From positions 1 to 13,394 of the forward strand of contig USEE01000012.1 of NCBI GenBank assembly GCA_900553645.1: 13,394 bases of DNA. The letters run 5' to 3'. Every line of letters begins with the position of its first letter. Positions within the stretch are counted from its first letter, which is position 1. The position numbers and the translations under genes are program-made. This stretch comes from an uncultured Eubacteriales bacterium (GTDB lineage: Bacteria; Bacillota_A; Clostridia; Christensenellales; Aristaeellaceae). The notes beneath the pieces are model-generated. The model was given only the letters and a program-made list of their open reading frames with translations, was not told the DNA's origin and did not search any database. Shown here in pieces: positions 726-13,394 of this stretch.

Positions 726-2165
726 ATGGCGCGGGATTATGAGACGGCGCTGGTATTGCGCGGGTTTGGCGGGCTGGATCAGAGCAAGGACCGAACGCTT
801 ATAAGCTATTCAGACAGCCCGGACTGCGTGAACATGTCCACGGAGGGCGGGTCACTGAGGACGGCGTGCGGATATAGGCGCATAGACGCGCCGAACGTGC
901 CCGGCGGGGTAAAGAGCATGGGCGCATTTTACCGCCGATCGGACGGGCGCGAATGGATACTGTGCGCCAACGCAGGCGGGATATATGCCTGGTCCGGCGA
1001 CACGGGCGGGCAAAGCCAAAGCGCGTGGGAGCAGATATATGTGCCCGAGAGCGGGAAAATGGGCGAGAGGGTGGACTTTCTGAACTATCAGGACAAAGAA
1101 AACGACGTTGTGCTGATGGCGGACGGAGTGAACCCGGTGCTCACATGGTCGGGCAGCGGCGAAAGCCATGCGCGTAAGGGCATAACCCAGCGATTTGCGC
1201 ACATCGAGATGAACTATGAACGGGTATGGGGCGCGGGCGCGCCGGGCGAGCCGGACACGGTATACTGGTCGCGGCAGTTCGACGTGGGCGACTGGACGGG
1301 CGACGTGAGCGACCCGGACAACGGAGGCGGATTTTTACAGGCGCCGACGTGGAACGGCGGTAAGATACGGCTGATAAGCGCGCTATTCGGCGACATAGTG
1401 ATATTCAAGGATCAGGACGTATTAAAGGTATCGGGCACGTATCCGGGCGAATACCAGGTAAGCCGCGTGACGGGCACGGAAGGGCCGGTAGCGGCGCGCA
1501 CGGTGTGCCAATGGGGCGACAAGGTATACTTTCTGGGGCGCACGGGGCTATGCTTTTACGACGGAATGCGCGCGCAGGACGCGGGCGACCGGCGGGCGCG
1601 CAAATGGTACGAGCGCATAAGCGAAAGCTACATCGAGAATGCGTGCGCGATAGTGCATGGGCACACGATGTACATCGCGCTGCCGGTGGACGGGAGCGAA
1701 GAGAACAACTGCGTACTGGAATACGACATGAACCGCGACACGATAATGCCGCGCACCGGGATAAACGCGGCGCACTGGCTGGAGTGGAACGGGAAGCTGC
1801 TGTTTGCGGGCAGTTCAGGCGTGATATACGAATACGGGCAGGGCACGACGTATGACGGCAGACCCATAAACGCGTACTGGGAGACGCCCACGTACAATAT
1901 GGGGTCGAGCAAGCTGACGGGCGACAGAACCACGAAGCAGCTGGGGGAGCTGACCGTATACGGCAAGGGGCGGATGCACATATTGGCGCGGGCGGACGAG
2001 AAGCAAAAGCAGAGCGAAATAATCATGCACACGTATGACAAGCGCACGCGCAAGCGGCTGAACCTGCGCGGGCGCAGGTTTAGCCTGCGCCTTTCTTCGG
2101 TGGACGGGGTGAGCTTTGAACTATACGGAAGCGTGACGATCGGGATGGATGTGGAGAGCGATTGA
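726..2165 (+). CDS. phage beta-propeller tail/nozzle-like structural protein (479 aa)
   Basis: The start (LRGFGGLDQSKDRTLISY, then DCVNMSTEGGSLRTACGYR) is typical of phage proteins that begin with a 'GG...' strand and a 'g-lRtr-Gy' turn before a beta-propeller. Repeated blade-like segments follow, for example ILCANAGGIYAWSGD, VVLMADGVNPVLTW, DKVYFLGRTGLCFYDG, HTMYIALPVDGSEENNCVLEYD and GKLLFAGSSGVIYEYG. The middle has YWSRQFDVGDWTG, a motif often seen in such tail proteins. By fold and position after the adaptor it is probably the tail tube/nozzle of a short-tailed phage (role like T7 gp12 or P22 gp10). ATG 726 has only a weak G-rich ribosome site (about 716-719). Isoleucine codons are ATA in 18 of 23 cases, in a GC-rich gene. 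Confidence 0.65.
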   Translation: MARDYETALVLRGFGGLDQSKDRTLISYSDSPDCVNMSTEGGSLRTACGYRRIDAPNVPGGVKSMGAFYRRSDGREWILCANAGGIYAWSGDTGGQSQSAWEQIYVPESGKMGERVDFLNYQDKENDVVLMADGVNPVLTWSGSGESHARKGITQRFAHIEMNYERVWGAGAPGEPDTVYWSRQFDVGDWTGDVSDPDNGGGFLQAPTWNGGKIRLISALFGDIVIFKDQDVLKVSGTYPGEYQVSRVTGTEGPVAARTVCQWGDKVYFLGRTGLCFYDGMRAQDAGDRRARKWYERISESYIENACAIVHGHTMYIALPVDGSEENNCVLEYDMNRDTIMPRTGINAAHWLEWNGKLLFAGSSGVIYEYGQGTTYDGRPINAYWETPTYNMGSSKLTGDRTTKQLGELTVYGKGRMHILARADEKQKQSEIIMHTYDKRTRKRLNLRGRRFSLRLSSVDGVSFELYGSVTIGMDVESD

Positions 2166-2173
2166 GCACAAAA

Positions 2174-2240
2174 CAACCCCGCAGAGGCGGGAGAAGGCGT
2201 TTTTAATCGCTTGTTTTTTGTTTCAGGCGATAGAGAGGTG
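2174..2240 (+). promoter_or_regulatory. hairpins and ribosome site in the gap before the Gly/Ser-rich gene
   Basis: Two hairpins lie in this 81-bp gap. CCCGC-AGAG-GCGGG (2178-2191) is followed at distance by TTTTT and could be a weak terminator or pause. A second hairpin pairs 2206-2213 with 2224-2231 (8 bp with one T-G wobble) around a T-rich loop and ends one base before the purine-rich ribosome site GAGAGGTG (2233-2240). The latter placement could tune translation. AGCGATT at the end of the upstream gene (2157-2163) also complements AATCGCT at 2205-2211, so alternative pairings exist. Confidence 0.35.
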
Positions 2241-2246
2241 AACGGG

Positions 2247-3569
2247 ATGGCAGGCTTTTTGAACAGCACGAGCAAGAAAAGCGGGCTGAAAACCAGCCGA
2301 AAAAAGACGGGAACGGGAAAGGGCACGGGCGGCGGCGGTGGCGGCGGCACGACAGGCGCGGGCAGCAAGTCGGGGTCGATATGGGGCGCGGCCAAGACCG
2401 TAACCGACATGGTGAGCGACAATCTTAAAAACATGTTGGGCGGGAATAAAAGCACCGTAAGCTCGGCGGGCAAGACGGCCGCACCCGCATCGTCGGCGAC
2501 GCTGACGGGCGCGGCGAACGCGCTGACGAACAGGAGCGGCACGGGAAGCGGCGGCACGGGCTCGGCCGGCGGCACGGGAAGCGGCGGCACGGGCTCGGCC
2601 AACTCGTCAGGCAGCAGTGCGGGCGGCTCGGCCAGTGCTTCAGGCGCGACAGGCTCGAATGGATCGGCCGGTTCAGGCCGAAGCGAGTATTGGGGCACGC
2701 GCGGCGATCTGGCTAAAGAATATCAGCAGTGGCTAAACAGCCAGGGCGCGGGGCTCAGCGTGGACGGCATATGGGGCAAGAACACCGAAAACGCGTATCA
2801 GCAGAACAAAAGCGCGTTTGAAGAATGGCTAAAAAGCAAGGACGCGGGCGCGTCGGGCGGCGATGCGGGCACGGGCGGCACGGGCACAACCACCACGGCG
2901 GGCATAAACTCGGGCGATCTGGAGGCGCTTTTGAAGCAATACCAGACCGGCGCGTACACGCCCCGAAGCAACGAGGAACTGCGCGCGGCGGCCGAGGCGC
3001 AGTACGAAGCGGAGTATAACGCCAACGTCCTGGCGGCAAAGCAGAAAAACGAAGAGTACCAGCAGAGCATAAATCAGCAGATAGCAAGCCTGCAAAAGGT
3101 GCTTAGCGAAAATCAGGCCGCGACGCAGAAGCAGTATGAATTAAGCGGCAACGCGCTTCAAAGGATGCTGACGGCGCGTGGGCTGGGGCGGTCGAGCTAT
3201 GCCGGGGATGTGGCGCAGAACAATGTAAATAACGCCTCGGAGGCGCTAAGCAAGCTGCTAAGCGACTATACGACCAGCGCGGGCCAGCTCAGCGCGCAGG
3301 GAGCGATGTACAACCGGCAGACCGCGGACACGCTGAGCCAGCTAATGCGCGACAGAGCCAGCAATGTAAGCAGCGCGTACAATCAGCTGAAGTCCGAGGA
3401 ATACGAGCGGGGCAAGGCGGCGCAGGACAGCTACAATCAGATTGTGAATAACCTGCAGTCGATGCTATCAGACCGGAGCCTGACGCAGCAGCAATTGGCC
3501 GAGTCGATCCGCCAGTTTAACGAGCAATTGAAGGAAAATAAGAGACAGTATGACTTGAGCGCGAAATGA
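2247..3569 (+). CDS. Gly/Ser-rich phage virion protein with PG-binding-like motif (440 aa)
   Basis: Residues about 1-145 are low complexity: a Lys-rich start, a run of seven glycines, then Gly/Ser/Thr/Ala repeats. Residues about 147-198 contain GDLAKEYQQWLNSQG and LSVDGIWGKNTENAY (170-184), which matches the helix-turn of the peptidoglycan-binding 1 family (VDGxxGxxT). Residues about 225-440 are Gln/Ala/Ser-rich amphipathic helix, ending FNEQLKENKRQYDLSAK, as in internal or ejected proteins and tail needles. No catalytic lysozyme motif is visible. It may be an injected or cell-wall-contacting virion component. ATG 2247 is chosen because GAGAGGTG lies 6 bases upstream; the in-frame TTG at 2211 lies in a hairpin and lacks a ribosome site. 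A terminator hairpin follows 2 bases after the stop. Confidence 0.6.
   Translation: MAGFLNSTSKKSGLKTSRKKTGTGKGTGGGGGGGTTGAGSKSGSIWGAAKTVTDMVSDNLKNMLGGNKSTVSSAGKTAAPASSATLTGAANALTNRSGTGSGGTGSAGGTGSGGTGSANSSGSSAGGSASASGATGSNGSAGSGRSEYWGTRGDLAKEYQQWLNSQGAGLSVDGIWGKNTENAYQQNKSAFEEWLKSKDAGASGGDAGTGGTGTTTTAGINSGDLEALLKQYQTGAYTPRSNEELRAAAEAQYEAEYNANVLAAKQKNEEYQQSINQQIASLQKVLSENQAATQKQYELSGNALQRMLTARGLGRSSYAGDVAQNNVNNASEALSKLLSDYTTSAGQLSAQGAMYNRQTADTLSQLMRDRASNVSSAYNQLKSEEYERGKAAQDSYNQIVNNLQSMLSDRSLTQQQLAESIRQFNEQLKENKRQYDLSAK
2538..2603 (+). repeat. 33-bp in-frame tandem duplication
   Basis: Positions 2538-2570 and 2571-2603 are the same 33-bp unit, identical over the first 30 bases. Each encodes GTGSGGTGSAG or GTGSGGTGSAN. 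The duplication lengthens the flexible Gly/Ser linker of the virion protein without shifting frame, and is a likely site of length variation by slippage or recombination. Confidence 0.8.
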
Positions 3570-3571
3570 GA

Positions 3572-3600
3572 AATACCCGTCCTTAAAAAGGGCGGGTATT
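3572..3600. terminator. bidirectional terminator hairpin
   Basis: AATACCCGTCCTT (3572-3584) pairs with AAGGGCGGGTATT (3588-3600) to give a 13-bp stem with one T-G wobble and a three-base loop. On the plus strand it lies 2 bases after the stop of the Gly/Ser-rich virion gene. On the minus strand it lies just after the CRISPR-like repeats and is followed by TCTCATTT. Neither side has a long T tract, but the stem ends in TATT on both strands. It probably ends both the phage late transcript and the minus-strand cargo transcript. Confidence 0.7.
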
Positions 3601-3604
3601 GGTG

Positions 3605-3693
3605 GATTTACCCCCGCGCGTGCGGGGAAAAGGCATTGAGGGCTGTGTCCATGCGGATGCTGATAGGATCACCCCCGCATATGCGGGGAAAAG
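3605..3693 (-). CRISPR. mini CRISPR array, type I-E-like: two repeats, one spacer
   Basis: Two 28-bp repeats lie at 3666-3693 and 3605-3632, exactly 61 bp apart, leaving a 33-bp spacer (3633-3665). A 28-29 nt repeat plus a 32-33 nt spacer is the type I-E period. Each repeat has the I-E hairpin CCCCGC-NNNN-GCGGGG. The loop differs (ATAT versus GCGT) while the stem is kept, and the bases GC after AAAAG are also shared. Read on the minus strand the intact copy is CTTTTCCCCGC...GCGGGGGTGATCC, which resembles from memory the Streptococcus thermophilus CRISPR4 (I-E) repeat. So the crRNA sense is the minus strand. The last copy in that direction (3605-3632) is altered at its 3' end (TAAATC instead of TGATCC), as is usual for the terminal repeat of an array. 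No cas gene is in the window. I find no match to the spacer within the window. Confidence 0.8.
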
Positions 3694-3703
3694 GCTAAGG
3701 CGA

Positions 3704-3859
3704 CTACTCGCTTTTGAGATCTGCAAAAAGCTCGTCAAGGTTGGTATAACCTTTTACAACTGGGTCTTTCGCAATCCTTTCTGCCTCCAACAGGGCAGTG
3801 ATGGTCTCTGCATTGGGGACTTCAGCAGTATGTGCGTCATCAGGTTGGGGGTTAGTCAT
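3704..3859 (-). CDS. truncated RelB/DinJ-family antitoxin-like protein (51 aa)
   Basis: The frame runs from ATG (3859-3857) to TAG (3706-3704). It is preceded by a perfect AAGGAGG (3874-3868) at 8 bases and an in-frame stop further upstream, so the start is well set. The sequence contains VPNAETITALLEAERIAKDP and YTNLDELFADLKSE, the hallmark C-terminal region of RelB/DinJ antitoxins ('aerIa.Dpn.k.Ytdldelfa.Lk') that wraps the cognate RelE/YafQ-type mRNase. Family members are about 85-100 aa with an N-terminal ribbon-helix-helix domain. Here that half is replaced by a short polar leader (MTNPQPDDAHTAE), so it should not bind DNA or autorepress. No toxin gene is adjacent: downstream are the CRISPR repeats (stop 10 bases away) and a terminator. 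It is convergent with the upstream virion gene, divergent from the giant gene, and lower in GC than both. Possible role: a phage decoy neutralising a host toxin. Alternative: a relic of a host toxin-antitoxin locus. Confidence 0.75.
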   Translation of the reverse strand: MTNPQPDDAHTAEVPNAETITALLEAERIAKDPVVKGYTNLDELFADLKSE

Positions 3860-3867
3860 ACACAAGA

Positions 3868-3890
3868 CCTCCTTTTTGAATATTATAGCA
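3868..3890 (-). promoter_or_regulatory. extended -10 promoter and Shine-Dalgarno for the antitoxin-like gene
   Basis: On the minus strand TGCTATAAT (3890-3882) is a perfect extended -10 element. AAGGAGG (3874-3868) follows, 8 bases from the ATG. No good TTGACA is present 16-18 bases upstream, which fits an extended -10 promoter. The promoter faces away from the giant gene and overlaps no other coding sequence, so the cargo unit can be expressed independently of phage late transcription, for instance in a lysogen. Confidence 0.65.
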
Positions 3891-3916
3891 CAAAATCACT
3901 CAGTACGGAGGACAAA

Positions 3917-6900
3917 ATGTCGTATTTAAGCAGGATAAAGCAGGTTGAGGAAGAGAAGCGCAGGCAGGGCGGGACGGGCGCAAAGCCGAAGGCGAACGCG
4001 GCGGCGCGGAATGCAAACGGCACGATAAAGGCCACGGTAAAGACGAGCGCCGCGAAGTCCAAAGCGGCGCAGACGGTTTTAGTGCCGGGCGCGAGCGCGG
4101 CGGGCAAGGCGACGGGCGGGCAGACGCGCACGGGGGTAACGTGGAGCACGCTGAGCGACATGAAGCAGCGCGGGGCGATACCTTCGGCGGCCAAGACGCG
4201 CGCGGCAGACGTGAGGACGGTAAAGCCCGCGGGGAGCGACGCGGCGGGGACAAAAAGCACGCAGACCGGCGCGGCGGGCATGAAGATAAAGCCGCTGGAT
4301 TTGAATAATCCCGGCGCAAATGCAGACGTCAACGCGCTGATCGGCGCGCAGGTTAGTTCAAAAACGGTTCAAAACGGTTCAAATGCAATTCAGAGCGGCG
4401 CTCCGCGCAGGTCGTTCATCGCGAATGCGCAGACGGCGGGCGGGGCGGTTACGGGAACCCCTCAGTCACTTCGTGACGGCTTCACCCTCAGCGGAGCCAA
4501 TGAAAACGGGATTGTGGGGTCGGCCGCCAAAGCGCGGCGCGAAAACGAGCAGGTCGGGCGCACGCTTATGAGCGCGCTCGACCTGAACGACACGGGCACC
4601 CTGGCCGCGCTGGAGGGCATGGCGCCGGTGGTTTCATCGCCCGAGGTTAAGCCCGCGCAGGAGGGCGTACACTGGGACCCGCTGGGCGGCCTAAGCGCGC
4701 AGGAAAAGACCGAGGCGCTCATGCCCATAATCGAGAGCAGCGACTATTACAAGCAAAGCAAGGCGCAGATAGACGCACAGGCGGGCGCGCTGGACGCGGA
4801 GATACTCACGCTGGACGGGCGCATAGCGGCGCTGGGCGAGGAAAGCTTTTCCGAGGCGCAGGCGCTTAGGGCGGAGCGCAACCGGCTGAAGATGCAGCGC
4901 TACTACGCGCAGGACAAACTTAACAATCTGGCGGACGAGACGCGCGTGAGGCTTACCGACGCGGGCGTGCTTAAAGGGAGTCTTACGCCCGAGGAGAAGA
5001 TAAGGTACGACATAGACCAGGTGGCAAAGGCAAGCGGCGCGGCGGGCTTTTTTGAGACGCTGGGGCTTGCGACGGCCACGACGGGACATCAGGTGGTGGA
5101 TTCCACGCCGCGCGATCTGGCCACGACGTATGTAACCGCGATGGCGGCGATGGCGGGCGTGCAAAGCCCGGTGGACTGGCTGGAGGCGCACCCGGAGCAG
5201 AAGGCGATATTCGACCGGGCATATTCGCCCACGCAGGATTTAAGCGACTATTCCGGCTCGTTCGGCTCTGAAGGCTGGGACACGTTTCAAAAACTGGAGC
5301 AGAGCGCGGCGGAGAGCCTTAAAACGATGGCGATAAGCTACGGACTGGGCGCGGTGGGCGCGGGCAGTGCCGGGGCGGGCGCACAGCACGTGACGCGCAT
5401 ATTGCAATGGGTGAATTCCGGGCTATCGGCGGCGGCAGGCGCGGCGCGCGACGCGGCGACAGCGGGCGCGGATTCGCACGACGCGGGCGCGGCGTTTTTG
5501 TTCACGGGCATAGCCAACGCATATTTGGAGCAGGGCGGCGCGGACAGGGTATTTGAAAACGCGGCGCGGCTGGGGCAGAAGATAGCGGGCACGGGCGCGG
5601 GCGGGAAGATAGTATCCAAACTATGCCCGGCGGGCGTGAAAAAGGTAGCGGACGCGATAAAGTCGTCCAAATACGGATGGATATACGAGGCGGGGCTGGA
5701 CGTATTCAAATCGTTTTTCAGCGAAGGATTTGAGGAAGTGGCCGAGGACGCGGTGGGAAACGCCATAGCCAAAGCGGTATACGACAAAGACATGCCGTGG
5801 ACGGGCGAGGGCGGCGTTATAGACGGCGCGCAGTACATGGAGGACGGGCTGATCGGCGGCGGCATGGGCGCGGCGTTTACGGTGATAGGCGGGCTTTTGA
5901 TGCCGGGGCAGTACCGGGCGCACTTGCTGTCCCAAATCGCGCTGGATGAGGTTAAGCGCGGTATGCCCATAAGCAAAAAGCAGATAGCGGACATAAACGC
6001 GGCGATAGACACCGAGATACGCGCGGGCGAAAAGTCGATAAGCGACGTGGACGCGCACGCGGGCATATGGCGCGCAAACGGGCAGGAAGCGCCCGAGAGC
6101 CTTAAAAACTGGCGCGCGGCGGCGGAAAACGCGGGGAAGGCGCAAAGCGTATACGAGGCGGCGCGCCGGGGCGTGGAGCAGCTGATAAGCGACATGGAGT
6201 CGGGCGCGGTAGACGTAAGCACCGAGCAGGGCGTAAAGAGCTACAACGCTGTAATGGCCGAGTACAGCGCCGCGAGCGAGAAGTTAAGCCAGGCGGCGCG
6301 GGAGAACGTGAGCGCGCGCGATACATATTACACGGACGAGGACGCGTTAAGCGCGCAGTTGGACGGCAAAAGCAGCGCGACCATAGAGCGCATGGACGAG
6401 ATCGCGCAGGCACTTCGCGAGCCAGGCGGCGCGGGCGACGTGGACGCGAGAAAGCTTAATTCGCCCGAAGCGCAGGAAGTGATACGCGCGGCGGACGAAG
6501 CGATAATGAGCCGCGACGCGCTGGCGGGCGAGATAGAGCAGACGGTCGAGGATGAGAAGAATGCACCGTCGCCCGGGGAAGCGCTGGAGGCGATTGAGCG
6601 GCGCAGGCAATTGAGCGCGGAGTATGTAGTAGCGCGCCAGCAGGCCGAGGAGGTGCTAACTCAACTGCGCGAGGCGGTCAGAAACGACAGCCCGGAGCGG
6701 CTGAATGAGCGGATGGAGGAAGGCCGCGCGCGCAACCGGGAAAATGGACAGTACGACGAAAAATACGACAGCATAAGCACGCAGGAATTAAGCGCCGAGC
6801 GGGAGCGGCTGAACCTGAGGCTGGAGCAGGTGGAAAACGAGCTGGAGGGCGCGCACGGGTCGCGGTACAGGCGGCTGGAGAGAGAGGCGGAGCGGCTATA

Positions 6901-9900
6901 TAACGAACGCAGTGCGGTAGAGGCTGAAATACTGCTGCGCGGCGAGGTATATGGTGCAAGGCCGGACGGCATAGGCGAAAGTGCACAGGCGGGCGGTATG
7001 CCCATGGCCGTGGTCGCGGACGACTTCGGGAATGAAAATGCGCCCGCAATGGGCGGCGGCGATGTGCAGAGTGTGGATAATGCGCCGCAGATGCGCACGG
7101 AGGTGCAGAACCAGAACACGCCCGCCGAACTGCGCACGAGCGCAAACGGGTATATTGAGGTATTCAGCGCCGACGGGCAGGTGGATATTGAGCGCGCGCA
7201 GGAGATGCTGGACAGCGCCAACACGGGCGTAACGTATAAGCCCGCGGGTGAGTACAGCGCCGACGAGATACGCAATATACAGGGGTATTTGCAGTCGGTT
7301 GACAAGAATATGGTAGAGCTTTGCGAAGAATACCGTGCCAACAAGAACGGGAAATTCAAGAGGTATACCATTTCGCCGGTTACGGACGTGGAAGCCAGCG
7401 ATATATCAGCGCTGACCGGAACGGATTTAAGCGGGTATGTACATGCCATAGACAAGAACGGATTTAACCACATAGAGAAGCGGCATGGAATAAATGGCGA
7501 GAATGACAGCAACATGTCGAATGCCAGCGATGTGGCGCGCATAGGGTACGTGCTTGCCAATTATGACAGTGTAGAGCTTGCACTGAAAGAAGATGGAACG
7601 CCGGATGCAGCGGTTGGCTATATGGATTCAAATGACAATCCATCAAAAAAGCTGATTTACAGCAAAAAAATAAACGGCACGATGTACGTAATCGAAGCCG
7701 CAGGTGACAATGCATATAAAAAGCTGTGGGTAATAACGGCATACATGGATTCTGGCAATAAAAAAAGAGGCTTACGGCAAGCGCCCAATGCCAGTGAACA
7801 GCAAGTCATTGACCCTCGGCTTACGTCCGAAACGGACTTCCCATCTCGCCCCTCTGACATAAATATATCACAGGGCGGCTCAAATGTCAACGCGGACACG
7901 GGCAAAGTGCTGGGCGGCATATACGCAAACGGCAAGCCGCTATTTAGCGCCATGACGGACGCGGAATTGGACGGCGAAATCGCGCGGGAAGCGGACGGCG
8001 GGCGGCTGGCGGAGCTGAGAAGCGAGCGCGAGAATCGGGCGGGGCAGGAAAACGCGGACAGGCGCAGACGCGATGTGCGGCTGGGCGAGATAGAGCAGAT
8101 GCTGTCGGACGTGCCCAGGGCGGACGATACCGAGCTTAACATGCAGGAGCGGTACCTGAGGCGGCGGGCGGCGCAGCTGGACAGCGAGATCGAGGTGGCC
8201 AGGGACAGCGGCGACGACGTGAAGGGGCTTACGGACGAATTAAAGCGCACGCAGGACAATATGAATGCAATCCACGCGGAGCAGCAGCGCCGCGCAAGTG
8301 TACGTCAGGAAGCCACGGAGAGCCTTATAAACGAGATACGCGACGAAAACCCGGGCAGGCGCAGGGACGCCGAGGCGGAGCGCGAGCGGATAAGGCAGAG
8401 CCAGCAGGCGGGGCGCGAGGCATTGGACGCGCTGAAGGCCGGGCGGGACGGGCGTCGGGCGTGGCGCACGACCGACGCCATATCGATAGAGGAAGCGGCG
8501 CGGGTATTTACAGACGGCGCGGGCGCGGAGGACGGCGCGGACATTGAAGGCACGCTGAAGGCCAATCAGGAGGCGATAAGCCAGTGGGAGCAGCGGCGCG
8601 CGCAGCTGAGCGGCGCGGAAGCGGACTTGCAGGAGGAACTAAGTTCACTGCTTAAACAGCAGACGCGCATGGCGCAGGAGGACGCGAATAGATTGTCGGC
8701 GGACGATGTGCGCGAGCGGCTGAATATAAACGAGCGGATAATCCGGATCCAGAACGACATGGATCAGGTGAAGGGGCTGAGGCAGCAGATAGACAGCAGC
8801 CTGAGGTACTTAAACGCGCACGCGGGCGAGGGGGTTATTGAGACGCTGCGCTCAGGCCGGATACCCGAGCAGATGATGGAGCGCATAATGGGGTATGTGG
8901 ACGAGATACGCGTTCCCAAAAGCGGCGCGACCGGCATGAACATGAACACGCCCGCGCGGGTATTCGACGATCTGTTCGGGGACGCGTCGCCGGTAATGCG
9001 CGCGATATACACGGACCCGATAGCCGAGCACGAGGCGGACAGGCAAAGGTATATAGCGGGTGCGCGGGAAAAGATAGCGGCGCTAAAGCTGAACAGTGCG
9101 GAAAGCGAGCTGGTCCAGCGCGTGGGCGAGGGCGTAATGACGCCGGACGAGCTGGACAAGGCGATAAGCGAAGGGCTGGCGCGGCGCGGAAGCAAACTGA
9201 AGCGCGGCGACGGCACATGGCAGGAGGGCGCGGAGGTAAGCGCGCCGCGCGTCAGTACGGCAGAGCAGGCGCTGGAGGCGCTCAAAAGAGCGGTAGATAA
9301 TAACCCGCTTCAGGCCGGACATGAATACAAGGCGGGCGATTATGACGAGCTGATAAAAAAGGTTCAGGCTGACGGCGGGACGCATACCGCGGATGAGTGG
9401 GATCGCATTTTAGGCTTTGCAGGAAATAATCCGCGCGCCAGCAACCTTGAGAGGTTCGTGCATAACACGCAGGAACGCGCGCTGGCGGCGAACGACGGCA
9501 AGACCACGAAAGCCGAGGCCAGGAATGCGACGGTCAGTTCGACGGAGCTGCTTGAGTTTATGCGCAATGAGATGGCCGAAGATGCGGAAAGAATGCCGCA
9601 AAGGCGTAAGTTTACGGATCAGCTGCTTTCAAAAACGGAAATACCAGTAGTCGAATTGAAAACGCCGGTTATTGACATAAGCAAGCCGTTCAGTGAAGCG
9701 AAGAAGGTTGCAGGGTTCAAAACGACGGTCAATGCAGATACAGGCGTTGAAATTGCGATCAATGGTGACGGATATAAGAAAACACGCAGAAGCATAGAAA
9801 ACTTGCCTGATGAACTTAAAGTGCCTGCAAAAGCAGCCCTTGAGAATTTCAACACTCTTATTCAGAATAGCGTCTATGTGGGCAGTTATACGGATTATGG

Positions 9901-10213
9901 CAATTCGCAGAACATGACCGCTATGCACTGCTTCGTAGCGCCGTTTGAATATGATGGCACAGAATACCGCGCCATATATTCGGCGAAAGAGACTCGTAAT
10001 AACGACGGCGGTTATAGTACAAAGCTGTACCTGCAGCGCGTGGAAGCCCTGAAAGCACAAAAAAATGTGGCAAACGTTGAAGACCTCACAATCTCATCGA
10101 ATGAGACGGAAAGGACAAAAAATTACATCAACGATGCCACTAATGGAAGTGTATCACCGCAAGGCAGCGCTGTCAACACAATCGACGCGAAAACCACGGG
10201 AATCAATTTTTAA
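3917..10213 (+). CDS. giant phage polyvalent virion protein with PBECR-type nuclease-like and LPD3-like domains (2098 aa)
   Basis: I start at ATG 3917 (MSYLSRIKQVEEEKRRQGG) because GGAGG (3907-3911) lies 5 bases before it. The frame is open back to TTG 3599, but that stretch covers the CRISPR repeats and the antisense antitoxin gene. Layout: 1-150 basic Ala/Lys-rich; about 462-668 Gly/Ala-rich, partly hydrophobic, including FSEGFEEVAEDAVGNAIAKA, a module common in large ejected phage proteins; about 680-1090 charged coiled coil; about 1165-1280 a PBECR-type (Barnase-EndoU-ColicinE5/D-RelE-like nuclease, closest to PBECR3) domain with HIEKRHG at 1185-1191, then LIYSKKINGTMYVIEA and LWVITAYM; about 1330-1640 coiled coil; about 1660-1770 a conserved phage segment with MNTPARVFDDLFGD and DPIAEHEADRQRYIAGAR; about 1933-2045 a domain resembling LPD3 of polyvalent proteins (NLPDELKVPAKAAL, then YVGSYTDYGN and EYRAIYSAKE). 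No signal peptide. Likely injected with the DNA, carrying effector domains into the cell. The nuclease activity is inferred. Confidence 0.7.
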   Translation: MSYLSRIKQVEEEKRRQGGTGAKPKANAAARNANGTIKATVKTSAAKSKAAQTVLVPGASAAGKATGGQTRTGVTWSTLSDMKQRGAIPSAAKTRAADVRTVKPAGSDAAGTKSTQTGAAGMKIKPLDLNNPGANADVNALIGAQVSSKTVQNGSNAIQSGAPRRSFIANAQTAGGAVTGTPQSLRDGFTLSGANENGIVGSAAKARRENEQVGRTLMSALDLNDTGTLAALEGMAPVVSSPEVKPAQEGVHWDPLGGLSAQEKTEALMPIIESSDYYKQSKAQIDAQAGALDAEILTLDGRIAALGEESFSEAQALRAERNRLKMQRYYAQDKLNNLADETRVRLTDAGVLKGSLTPEEKIRYDIDQVAKASGAAGFFETLGLATATTGHQVVDSTPRDLATTYVTAMAAMAGVQSPVDWLEAHPEQKAIFDRAYSPTQDLSDYSGSFGSEGWDTFQKLEQSAAESLKTMAISYGLGAVGAGSAGAGAQHVTRILQWVNSGLSAAAGAARDAATAGADSHDAGAAFLFTGIANAYLEQGGADRVFENAARLGQKIAGTGAGGKIVSKLCPAGVKKVADAIKSSKYGWIYEAGLDVFKSFFSEGFEEVAEDAVGNAIAKAVYDKDMPWTGEGGVIDGAQYMEDGLIGGGMGAAFTVIGGLLMPGQYRAHLLSQIALDEVKRGMPISKKQIADINAAIDTEIRAGEKSISDVDAHAGIWRANGQEAPESLKNWRAAAENAGKAQSVYEAARRGVEQLISDMESGAVDVSTEQGVKSYNAVMAEYSAASEKLSQAARENVSARDTYYTDEDALSAQLDGKSSATIERMDEIAQALREPGGAGDVDARKLNSPEAQEVIRAADEAIMSRDALAGEIEQTVEDEKNAPSPGEALEAIERRRQLSAEYVVARQQAEEVLTQLREAVRNDSPERLNERMEEGRARNRENGQYDEKYDSISTQELSAERERLNLRLEQVENELEGAHGSRYRRLEREAERLYNERSAVEAEILLRGEVYGARPDGIGESAQAGGMPMAVVADDFGNENAPAMGGGDVQSVDNAPQMRTEVQNQNTPAELRTSANGYIEVFSADGQVDIERAQEMLDSANTGVTYKPAGEYSADEIRNIQGYLQSVDKNMVELCEEYRANKNGKFKRYTISPVTDVEASDISALTGTDLSGYVHAIDKNGFNHIEKRHGINGENDSNMSNASDVARIGYVLANYDSVELALKEDGTPDAAVGYMDSNDNPSKKLIYSKKINGTMYVIEAAGDNAYKKLWVITAYMDSGNKKRGLRQAPNASEQQVIDPRLTSETDFPSRPSDINISQGGSNVNADTGKVLGGIYANGKPLFSAMTDAELDGEIAREADGGRLAELRSERENRAGQENADRRRRDVRLGEIEQMLSDVPRADDTELNMQERYLRRRAAQLDSEIEVARDSGDDVKGLTDELKRTQDNMNAIHAEQQRRASVRQEATESLINEIRDENPGRRRDAEAERERIRQSQQAGREALDALKAGRDGRRAWRTTDAISIEEAARVFTDGAGAEDGADIEGTLKANQEAISQWEQRRAQLSGAEADLQEELSSLLKQQTRMAQEDANRLSADDVRERLNINERIIRIQNDMDQVKGLRQQIDSSLRYLNAHAGEGVIETLRSGRIPEQMMERIMGYVDEIRVPKSGATGMNMNTPARVFDDLFGDASPVMRAIYTDPIAEHEADRQRYIAGAREKIAALKLNSAESELVQRVGEGVMTPDELDKAISEGLARRGSKLKRGDGTWQEGAEVSAPRVSTAEQALEALKRAVDNNPLQAGHEYKAGDYDELIKKVQADGGTHTADEWDRILGFAGNNPRASNLERFVHNTQERALAANDGKTTKAEARNATVSSTELLEFMRNEMAEDAERMPQRRKFTDQLLSKTEIPVVELKTPVIDISKPFSEAKKVAGFKTTVNADTGVEIAINGDGYKKTRRSIENLPDELKVPAKAALENFNTLIQNSVYVGSYTDYGNSQNMTAMHCFVAPFEYDGTEYRAIYSAKETRNNDGGYSTKLYLQRVEALKAQKNVANVEDLTISSNETERTKNYINDATNGSVSPQGSAVNTIDAKTTGINF
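4355..4385 (+). repeat. short tandem repeat inside the giant gene
   Basis: Three near-identical units, TTCAAAAACGG, TTCAAAACGG and TTCAAATGC, lie in a row and encode SSKTVQNGSNA. The unit is 10-11 bp and AT-richer than the surrounding sequence, so slippage here would shift the frame of the giant gene unless compensated. Confidence 0.55.
4457..4500 (+). repeat. palindromic dispersed repeat inserted in frame in the giant gene
   Basis: The segment starts CCCCTCAGTCACTTCGTGAC and ends GGAGCCAA, with GTCAC-TTC-GTGAC as its core hairpin. This is the form of a palindromic element (CCTCAGTC..GAC.GCT..GGAGCCAA) that I recall as abundant between genes of gut Clostridia. Here it is translated as part of the giant protein (TGTPQSLRDGFTLSGAN) with no stop. 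Family assignment is from memory of the pattern. Confidence 0.5.
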
Positions 10214-10506: not shown

Positions 10507-12690
10507 ATGCGATGCTCCCTTGTTTCCAACAAAATAATCCAAGCCCGTGAACGTTTGGGACTCACACAGCAGCAGTTAGCGGAAAAGCTTTGTGTAACCA
10601 ACAAAGCCGTTTCCAAGTGGGAATGTGGCGTCACACTTCCTGACATCTCGCTTTTGGTGCCGCTATGCCGTGTTCTGGGTCTGACGGTGCAGGAACTGCT
10701 GGATGAATACGACGGCAAATTCGGTAATACCCCCGGCTGCCAGACCACGGAAGATCCTGCGCAGGACACGCTGTTTGCGGCGCAGCAGCACAGCCATTAC
10801 CTGTATATCGATCTCAAAACCACCTCTACGGTGTCGCCCCATTTGTTTGGCCACAACCTGGAGCATACCAGAGCCAGCATCATGGATGGTCTCAGCGCCC
10901 AGATGATCCGCAACCGGAAGTTTGCCGGCGCTGCGGCGCGCAACGGCGTAGCGCTGGACTGGGAAGGCATCGGCGAATGCGTGTACTTCGCCAATGAACA
11001 CCGCCTTCCCGGTAGCAACGCAAACGAAGCTTATGTATGTCATTACGCGCACAACGGCATGTGGCGGCGTAACGAATGCCAGTCCCAGATGATTCAGAAC
11101 CCAATTCCGAATCAGGTGAGCGGTATCCGTCAAAAGGAGCTCTTCCTTCAAAAGGACAGGAGCTATCCGTTTGCCGTCGTTGTCAAAGTACAGCAGCCGC
11201 TGGATGTGCGCGTCGCGCTCACCAACGCCGATGGTACGCAGATTTATGCGGAAACCGTTTTTCCTGTTCAGCCCGTTCTAGCGAAGGAGGATGCACAGGA
11301 AGAGCTGGATGAATGGCAGCGCTTTGAGACGATTCTGACCCCCGGCGTCGACGATGCGCATGCCGTGATAAGCATTACCTACACGGAGCAGGCACAACTG
11401 CTCATCGGCGCAGTTTCCATGATGCCGGACAATCATTTCCATACCATGCGCAGGGACACCGTGGAAAAGCTCAAGGAAATCGGCGTGCGTCTGCTGCGCT
11501 GGCCGGGTGGCAACTTTGCCGGCGAATATCGCTGGCAGGATATGTTCCTGCATCCCGACAGGCGCGCTCCCATGGAGGGCTACATGGAAAATGAAACGCA
11601 GCCCTTTACACACGGCTATGACATGCATGAAATAGACACCGACGATTTTATTGCACTGTGCCGTGAGATCGGCGCGGAGCCCTTCCTCACCATCAATGCC
11701 GCCTGGGATTCCCCCGAAGTATGCGCCGCCTGGGTGGAATACTGCAACGGCCCTGCCGAGAGCAAATACGGCAGGCTGCGTGCCCAGCGCGGTCATCAGG
11801 AGCCCTACAATGTCAAATGGTGGTCGCTGGGCAACGAAATGGGTTATGGCCACATGGAGGGCGCAAATACGCCGGATGGATACGCATCGCTGGTGGAAAC
11901 GCATGCGCGTGCCATGCTGAAGGTTACGCCGGATCTGAAATTTGTTTCTTCCGGCCCCTATCCGAATCAGGAGTGGGTAGATGTTTCCATCAAGAAGCTG
12001 GCTCCCATTGCGCCATACGTTTCTCTGCATACGTACAATTCAGTCCATTGGGACTTCACCTCTCCGGAGGGCATGGAGCGCTGCTATAACGAAATGATCC
12101 GCATGCCCATTCACAATCTAGGAATCCTGCGCAGGCTGCATGACATGCTCCCGGAAAAGACATTCATCTCCTACGATGAATGGAATCTGTGGAAAACATG
12201 GTGCCGCAATCCTTCCTCCATGGAGGGCATCTTCACTGCGCAGATGCTGCACATGTTCATGCATGAAAGCGAAAAACAGCGCATGCCCATGGCCTGCTAC
12301 TTTGAGCCGGTTAACGAAGGCGCCATGCAGGTGCATCCGGATCATACTGAGCTGACGGCAACCGGTCAGGCCTTTGCGCTGCTCTCCCGGCATGCCGGCG
12401 GAAAGCTGTGTACGGTAGATGGTGTAGAAGACTTTGAAGTCGTTGCCACCATCGATGATCATCATGTGCTGACCCTGACGATGCTCAACCTGAACTGGCA
12501 GGAGGAAACTACTTACTCTCTGAATAAATGCGGAACAATTCTGGAAAGCAAGGTACTTCAGGCCGAAAATCTGTTGCCTGGTACCCCGTTTACGGAAAAT
12601 CCCCTGATGATTCATGTCAAGGATGATATTATCAAGGCGAAGCTTCCACCCCGCAGCGTTGCCTGTATCAGTATTTCACTCGTCGAATAA
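10507..12690 (+). CDS. XRE helix-turn-helix fused to GH51 alpha-L-arabinofuranosidase (727 aa)
   Basis: Residues about 8-65 are an XRE/HTH_3 DNA-binding domain (ARERLGLTQQQLAEKL, NKAVSKWECG, then LPDISLLVPLCRVLGLTVQELL). After a linker (about 66-96), residues 97-727 are a full GH51 enzyme. It opens with VSPHLFGHNLEHTRASI; about 200-310 is a beta-rich insert. RWPGGNF (331-337) supplies the substrate-binding Arg/Asn; SLGNE places the acid/base Glu at 444; SLHTY (506-510) has conserved His508 and Tyr510; YDEWN places the nucleophile Glu at 558; a C-terminal beta-sandwich ends LPPRSVACISI. GH51 enzymes release terminal arabinofuranose from arabinan, arabinoxylan or arabino-oligosaccharides. There is no signal peptide, so it acts in the cytoplasm. 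The fusion suggests a one-protein sensor-regulator or an autoregulated enzyme. Codon use (Ile ATC/ATT) differs from the phage genes, so it belongs to the chromosome. Confidence 0.9.
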   Translation: MRCSLVSNKIIQARERLGLTQQQLAEKLCVTNKAVSKWECGVTLPDISLLVPLCRVLGLTVQELLDEYDGKFGNTPGCQTTEDPAQDTLFAAQQHSHYLYIDLKTTSTVSPHLFGHNLEHTRASIMDGLSAQMIRNRKFAGAAARNGVALDWEGIGECVYFANEHRLPGSNANEAYVCHYAHNGMWRRNECQSQMIQNPIPNQVSGIRQKELFLQKDRSYPFAVVVKVQQPLDVRVALTNADGTQIYAETVFPVQPVLAKEDAQEELDEWQRFETILTPGVDDAHAVISITYTEQAQLLIGAVSMMPDNHFHTMRRDTVEKLKEIGVRLLRWPGGNFAGEYRWQDMFLHPDRRAPMEGYMENETQPFTHGYDMHEIDTDDFIALCREIGAEPFLTINAAWDSPEVCAAWVEYCNGPAESKYGRLRAQRGHQEPYNVKWWSLGNEMGYGHMEGANTPDGYASLVETHARAMLKVTPDLKFVSSGPYPNQEWVDVSIKKLAPIAPYVSLHTYNSVHWDFTSPEGMERCYNEMIRMPIHNLGILRRLHDMLPEKTFISYDEWNLWKTWCRNPSSMEGIFTAQMLHMFMHESEKQRMPMACYFEPVNEGAMQVHPDHTELTATGQAFALLSRHAGGKLCTVDGVEDFEVVATIDDHHVLTLTMLNLNWQEETTYSLNKCGTILESKVLQAENLLPGTPFTENPLMIHVKDDIIKAKLPPRSVACISISLVE

Positions 12691-12748: not shown

Positions 12749-13394
12749 CACTTTGTAGAGTTTGAGCAGTGACAATGCAAACTTTCGTAACAAATTCAGA
12801 TTCTGCTGTGCAGTTTTGTTCGCAATTCGGCAGTAATCTTCCGAATAATGAACATACAGCAGCCAGTGCATCGATTCCACTGCCCACTCCATGCGTGCGT
12901 GGTGAAGCAGTTCTGACGCTGAAAGTTTACGGCTGGAGATATAATAATGCCACTCTTCTATCCGCGTCCCATCAATATCTGTTTCTTTCCTGATTGCGCC
13001 AATGCAGCTCAGATTCTTCCATTTCTCCTTCCCGTACAGCTACGCAATATCGCTTGTAGTATACGCTGTCCGGATTTCGATTCGCTCCCGGTTCTTTTCT
13101 ACCTTTCGCAGCTTGTCCATGTTGTCATGGAGTTTCTCGTCCTTGACATATTCAGCAATTTCTGTTTCCAGATTTCGCTGGTTTGCTTTGACATCCAACA
13201 AATAATCCGCCTTTCCCGACACGCTGACTTCAGCTGTCTTCTGCTGGCAATTCAGTGCATCCGCAACGATCAGGCATCCCTCAATGTCCATTTTCTTTAG
13301 CAATTCCTGCACTGCCGGGATTTCATTGCTTTTGCCATCAACCGCTTCAGATGCAAGTGTGACACCTAATTCACAGATTTGCGCACTAATAATA
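12731..13394 (-). pseudogene. ISAs1-family transposase remnant with internal stop, 5' end beyond the window
   Basis: Read from the right edge, the frame contains VDGKSNEIPAVQELLKKMDI, EGCLIVADALNCQQKTAE and GKADYLLDVKANQ, the signature of ISAs1 (H-repeat-like) DDE transposases. It stops at TAG (13042-13040) after TTSDIA, then continues in the same frame with LYGKEKWKNLSCIGAIRKET, EWHYYISSRKLSASELLHHA and MEWAVESMHWLLYVHYSEDY, to TGA at 12733-12731. Family members have Trp where the TAG stands (TGG to TAG), and usually Asp where this copy has Tyr in HWLLYVHY. The copy is therefore very likely dead. The first part of the gene and the right inverted repeat lie outside the window. No left inverted repeat was recognised. 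Confidence 0.85.

Follow-up and report, generated by a model that had tools for sequence, protein, structure and literature searches.

What would a phage gain from carrying, between two of its virion genes, a short antitoxin-like gene followed by a CRISPR array of a single spacer? Such a unit lies at positions 3572 to 3890 of the stretch analyzed here (the window: 13,394 nt of contig USEE01000012.1 from an uncultured Eubacteriales bacterium), where promoter, ribosome-binding site, 51-aa ORF, repeat, spacer and repeat are all found on the minus strand. An extended -10 promoter element (TGC-TATAAT, 3882-3890) stands ahead of the ribosome-binding site AAAAAGGAGG (3868-3877), which lies 8 nt before the ATG of the 51-aa ORF (3859-3704); repeat R1 (29 nt, 3693-3665), the spacer (32 nt, 3664-3633) and repeat R2 (29 nt, 3632-3604) come next, and a stem-loop (3600-3572) separates the cassette from the virion gene upstream of it. 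A preliminary description of this DNA had named a small RelB/DinJ gene and a type I-E repeat-spacer-repeat with a 61-bp period on the minus strand, and sequence and repeat comparison bear out both. Its other elements stood in part: the promoter keeps the extended -10 element, but its -35 is poor and a strict sigma-70 scan listed no minus-strand promoter for the cassette; the proposed terminator does form a stem-loop (folding z-scores of -4.4 on the minus strand, with one mismatch, and -5.5 on the plus strand), but it lacks a T-run and a terminator scan reported none for the cassette; and the spacer, given as 3633-3665, was placed about right, except that base 3665 is the last of R1. The single transcript proposed for gene and pre-crRNA is likely, judging from the layout. 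A promoter and ribosome site similar to those of the cassette occur in another genome (G242), there ahead of an unrelated gene, and Rfam gave no match within 3500-3950.

The surroundings support a phage setting between structural genes, in a bacterial prophage. To the left lie a 452-aa putative virion protein with a DUF7934 match (2211-3569, plus strand) and, further left, another virion protein (726-2165, plus strand); to the right follows a 2098-aa polyvalent protein with PBECR3 nuclease-like and LPD3 domains (3917-10213, plus strand). As had been described, the unit sits between virion genes and departs from them in both strand and GC content (0.495, against 0.61 and 0.60 for the genes on either side). 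Domain searches recognized no cas gene within the window. The PBECR3 domain of the polyvalent protein is of a RelE/barnase-like nuclease kind, and the protein is encoded beside the RelB-fragment gene; a functional link between the two is possible. Further to the right, the plus strand encodes a 727-aa protein (10507-12690) in which an XRE-type HTH (HTH_3) is fused to an alpha-L-arabinofuranosidase-like part; the alignment with the best relative found (38%) starts only at residue 101, which makes the HTH fusion look unusual. A DDE transposase piece (13040-13393, minus strand) is cut by the contig edge.

The identity of the 51-aa protein is the first point to settle. At E<=0.01 it finds 46 other relatives (best 2.2e-11), RelB/DinJ wherever named or domain-annotated, and it aligns with roughly the C-terminal 38 residues of RelB/DinJ at 64-88% identity over the matched part, which bears out the C-terminal RelB/DinJ-like identity assigned to it earlier. 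The N-terminal ribbon-helix-helix DNA-binding domain is absent. Searches of Pfam, PHROGs and NCBIfam with the ORF alone gave no family, and the PDB gave no chain; a profile built from 27 members of the family, most of them full-length, hits the solved structures of the DinJ antitoxins, 4q2u and 4ml0. In DinJ, the C-terminal segment wraps YafQ, and from the alignment the cassette protein appears to possess this toxin-binding segment. It thus shares with the RelB/DinJ antitoxins (Pfam PF04221, TIGR02384; PDB 4q2u, 4ml0) the conserved C-terminal region common to both, and differs from them in the missing ribbon-helix-helix half and in having no toxin gene adjoining.

Short RelB fragments of this kind, without the ribbon-helix-helix part, also occur elsewhere in metagenomes, and some of them are plainly truncated and look like decaying genes. 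The ORF of the cassette is under clear coding constraint: against 81 distinct relB C-termini, the mean pS is 0.80 and the mean pN 0.107 (ratio 0.134), as compared with 0.67 and 0.051 (ratio 0.076) for the relB C-termini among themselves. Some extra change is nonetheless seen, its mean pN being the highest of the set (0.107 vs at most 0.104 in the 81 relB), which allows for some relaxation. The protein cluster of the ORF comprises 3 sequences from 8 contigs, and this recurrence argues against an isolated assembly error; a search of viral_contigs for relatives of the 51-aa protein confirmed none.

The second part of the cassette can be assigned by its repeats. A repeat-to-repeat period of 61 and a spacer of 32 nt are as in type I-E arrays, and repeats of the same kind, about 26 of them at a 61-nt period, form an array in a Faecalibacterium-like gut record (MT835722.1, L002) that adjoins cas1e, cas7/cse4, cse1 and cas3 by NCBIfam names, the other cas genes of this operon being read from gene order. 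Flavonifractor sp. An10 (L081, genome G005) carries the same repeat family as well, with 47 repeats by pattern and cas1e. By this comparison, the repeats of the cassette are assigned to type I-E, and the proposal of an I-E mini-array able to use a host Cascade is supported by the occurrence of the same repeat beside cas1e, cse1, cas7/cse4 and cas3. The record MT835722.1, with its I-E cas operon and long array, is labelled Bacteriophage sp.; a part of its spacers have matches in Faecalibacterium phages, which gives the impression of a cellular array under a phage label.

R1 is intact, whereas in R2 the stem is preserved but the loop is altered and the last 8 nt (GTAAATCC) are degenerate. With the Cas6e cut position presumably as in the E. 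coli layout, the last 8 nt of R1 (GUGAUCCU) would be the crRNA 5' handle, and the divergent last 8 nt of R2 lie 3' of the expected cut, so that a normal 61-nt crRNA is to be expected. The parts of the repeats needed in a crRNA, i.e., the 8-nt handle from R1 and the stem from R2, thus appear intact. The PAM of this repeat family was checked on six protospacer matches of the L002 array: the four close ones (30-32 of 32) lie behind AAT, AAC, AAC and GAC, and two divergent microvirus sites behind GTG and CTG, so that AAY is found in 3/6 overall. In type I-E systems, the last repeat base comes from the PAM; this base is C or T in 25/26 repeats of L002 and in 44/47 of Flavonifractor.

At which sequence would such a guide be directed? 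Read on the minus strand, the spacer translates to ISIRMDTALN, the start of RelB/DinJ antitoxins. The best sites among 680,648 bases searched match it at 27/32 positions, and the best 59 sites listed besides the window itself all translate to ISIRMD and all lie behind AAC or AAT, the triplet being the Asn codon that precedes ISIRMD in relB; 30 shuffled spacers reach 20-23 of 32 in the same bases. Within 81 fetched relB loci (80 found by RelB similarity, plus MT836380.1), 77 have their best spacer site, of at least 20/32, behind AAY (47 AAT, 30 AAC), and the four without such a site comprise two whose contigs begin inside relB (L008, L033), one with an altered start (L012) and one with another N-terminus (L048). 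Since these loci were picked by RelB similarity, the test bears on position and PAM and not on genome-wide specificity. MT836380.1, labelled Bacteriophage sp., carries a relB-yafQ operon among other genes.

The seed (positions 1-5 and 7-11) is fully matched in 57/77 sites and at 9/10 positions in 15 more, and outside every sixth base 20-25 of 27 positions match. PAM-proximal mismatches fall on wobble bases, mainly at positions 6 and 12, and Cascade flips out every sixth base, e.g., positions 6 and 12 of the spacer. Most other mismatches are PAM-distal; of the 77 sites, 99% differ from the spacer at position 23 and 100% at position 30. Nearly all sites (76/77) lie within an ORF bearing the RelB C-terminal motif, and by a loose motif search a RelE/YafQ-like ORF lies downstream of 63/77. 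A second set of 11 relB sites, obtained via C-terminal DNA similarity and including 7 identical in sequence, gave AAY in 11/11 and a full seed in 9/11. As a further control, 70 real I-E spacers from the L002 and Flavonifractor arrays reach 20-24 of 32 in the 81 loci, none of them (0/70) attaining 25/32. Taken by its seed match and suitable PAM, the spacer is predicted to be a guide against relB/dinJ.

A perfect protospacer was not found among the sites searched, each of which has at least 5 mismatches, and the nearly constant mismatches at positions 23 and 30 indicate that the true source gene is not among the sampled relB. In Flavonifractor sp. An10, this I-E repeat, cas1e and a relB-yafQ operon are present in one genome, and the first 20 protospacer bases, PAM-proximal and behind AAC, match contiguously in this operon. 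The preliminary description had assumed a crRNA against a competitor phage. This was not borne out: no convincing match of that kind appeared, the best hit in 50,697 phage and 72,556 plasmid records having E 3, and the 5' end of relB/dinJ with a suitable PAM was matched instead. Plasmids gave only weak matches, e.g., Rhizobium at 85% (E 3). A 23-nt spacer match in a gut phage scaffold (H6/L154) was set aside, there being no RelB reading frame at that place.

The cassette would be spared by its own guide, as the spacer matches exactly that half of relB which is absent from the 51-aa ORF. Across the whole window, no other site exceeds 20/32 and none has 9/10 seed bases; 16 other sites listed have 8/10 seed bases and at most 16/32 overall, and one of them, at 1950, lies behind AAT (11/32). 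Self-regulation was considered as well and dropped, as no window site besides the spacer itself, the cassette promoter included, has 9/10 seed bases.

Building on the observed anatomy, the type I-E repeats, the relB match with its PAM and seed and the coding constraint, we lean, with slightly better than even confidence, toward a phage-borne cassette that acts against the RelB/DinJ-RelE/YafQ toxin-antitoxin family with two arms working jointly. What leads there is that both halves, a RelB fragment and a relB-matching spacer, point at one and the same family. In the first arm, host Cas6e would cut the transcript to give a normal 61-nt crRNA, and Cascade would bind the 5' coding end of relB beside the AAY PAM and thereby block the relB-yafQ operon; alternatively, Cas3 could destroy a plasmid, prophage or island carrying relB-yafQ. 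In the second arm, the 51-aa fragment, having the toxin-binding region without the DNA-binding part, would mop up the long-lived toxin that is released once the supply of RelB stops. A single transcript would accordingly provide a toxin-neutralizing protein and a guide that turns the host Cascade on the genes of the same family, so that many relB-yafQ operons could be silenced or removed while cassette and cell stay safe; to this fuller version we attach somewhat less than even confidence. What weighs most against a joint function is that the cassette was seen in one copy and that no perfect target was found; the PAM that varies among the six L002 protospacers, the weak -35 and terminator, the comparatively high pN of the ORF and the decaying look of other RelB fragments also count against it.

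The same parts could also make up an anti-addiction weapon, in which Cascade-Cas3 destroys plasmids, prophages or islands bearing relB-yafQ and the fragment serves solely to keep the shared host from being killed after segregation. This reading, which we regard as unlikely, differs in the target (a mobile rival, with cleavage) and not in the parts. In An10, about 0.9 kb separates the relB-yafQ operon from a resolvase gene, a proximity that would suit a mobile target, and an antitoxin fragment fits protection from stranded toxin. All relB matches, however, contain mismatches, mostly PAM-distal ones, and in type I-E systems PAM-distal mismatches favor binding over cleavage; the pattern thus argues for binding. 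Viral mini-arrays targeting rivals are an established kind (PMC11656645, PMC8616872), but known mini-array spacers mostly match related viruses (PMC11656645), whereas that of the cassette has no good phage or plasmid match.

A captured host module of the CreTA/CrePA type, in which a degenerate mini-CRISPR RNA lets Cascade repress a toxin locus and the loss of Cascade frees the toxin, seems improbable to us. The gene followed by an ectopic two-repeat unit, the degenerate repeat, the partial seed complementarity and the link to toxin control are indeed creA-like (PMC8501985, PMC9458426, PMC12737573). In the cassette, however, the linked gene is a piece of an antitoxin and not a toxin, the guide has no 9/10-seed site at the adjacent promoter or elsewhere in the window, no cas locus was recognized beside it, and the unit is located on a phage. 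Moreover, the first repeat is the more diverged one in CreTA (PMC9458426) but the intact one in the cassette.

We give equally little credence to a mere relic, i.e., the remains of a decayed relB next to an ordinary spacer that was taken up from a relB gene, with no joint function. Such a reading could draw on the truncated RelB ORFs in metagenomes, the degenerate R2 and the single occurrence of the cassette. Against it stand the clean promoter, ribosome site and start codon, the low pN/pS in spite of a pS of 0.80, the protein cluster in 8 contigs, and the order of the parts: the gene, corresponding to the C-terminal half, comes before the spacer, corresponding to the N-terminal half, and simple insertion into relB does not give this order. 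Very improbable, finally, is an RNA anti-CRISPR with repeats serving as Racr decoys that trap Cas6e/Cas7, for while phage-encoded repeat mimics, often just downstream of a promoter as here, do inhibit CRISPR systems, with two candidates against a type I-E one (PMC10651486), the RelB match would then be incidental, and a complete repeat-spacer-repeat that should load Cascade normally, with a 32-nt spacer, a suitable PAM and a seed against relB, would be an unexplained coincidence; in the same loci, 0/70 real control spacers attain 25/32.

How far the two-arm cassette departs from known systems can be seen from its closest counterparts. Phage antitoxin mimics, such as Dmd of T4, are likewise phage proteins that would neutralize a host toxin; in the cassette, such a protein would come together with an RNA guide directed at the genes of the toxin-antitoxin system. 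A mimic acting against DarTG is a further example (PMC11481870). Viral mini- or orphan arrays contain one spacer and two host-type repeats, one of them possibly truncated, and rely on host Cas proteins in place of cas genes of their own, all as in the cassette (PMC11656645, PMC8616872). The cassette differs from them in that its spacer matches an antitoxin gene family and follows a gene whose protein would act on that same toxin family, and from the inter-virus mini-arrays in that no related virus is matched. In larger orphan viral arrays, some spacers match host genes or intergenic regions and regulation has been suggested (PMC8616872), so that host-directed viral spacers as such are not new. 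Among the open-access literature searched by titles and the starts of abstracts, no viral mini-array was found that targets an antitoxin gene or is accompanied by an antitoxin protein. Mini-arrays and antitoxin mimics are each known, and their coupling around one toxin-antitoxin family was not found in that literature. If the joint reading is true, phages would use host CRISPR effectors as programmable toxin-antitoxin regulators with a matched protein antidote, as a counter-defense against a whole toxin-antitoxin family at the DNA and protein level together, and viral mini-arrays whose spacers match no virus would gain a concrete role.

The preliminary description had suggested looking for conservation of gene and repeats with varied spacers, and this was not found. 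The whole cassette was seen in one copy and the relB link of its array once; none of 394 genomes from the order of Flavonifractor showed the gene-array junction pattern, and a DNA search of the same genomes, with two candidates scored per genome and some match in 43/394, gave none spanning gene and array among the matches listed, which were relB-like, repeat-like or, once, promoter-like by query range. A plasmid search found no cassette and a phage search only separate relB and array matches; four pattern scans of viral_contigs, which had no positive control, revealed no cassette, nor did a search of 16 genomes of another family, whose empty answer shows nothing. The I-E repeat pattern was absent near relB in 80 relB loci, and a generic two-repeat scan of up to three motif places per locus (motif present in 80/80) found none either.

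For an insertion of the cassette between the virion genes there are only hints. At the protein level, the nearest relatives of the virion protein are 54-98% identical, and in three distant phages (L139, L142, L160; virion protein at 32-36%) the next genes follow at 0-14 nt or overlap, closely packed and without a cassette; L139 and L160, whose ORFs are of equal size, could represent a single element. Viral scans with each flanking protein by itself (the large one by its first 800 residues) and a tblastn search of the 2098-aa protein against phages gave nothing.

Two-repeat units in two phage-like contigs indicate that mini-arrays of this repeat family recur. One is a one-spacer I-E mini-array (L128 1378-1467, G297:C193) between integrase-like and lipoprotein-like ORFs of a prophage-like contig, which by reading also carries a cI-like repressor gene; its 32-nt spacer has no convincing phage match. 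In the other (L129 2414-2490, G227:C107), which has endolysin-like and repressor-like ORFs nearby, a pair of I-E-like repeats at a distance of 50 bp, the second of them degenerate (GGGGGTAATTT), encloses a spacer of about 23 nt; this unit could be a CreA-like or Racr-like element.
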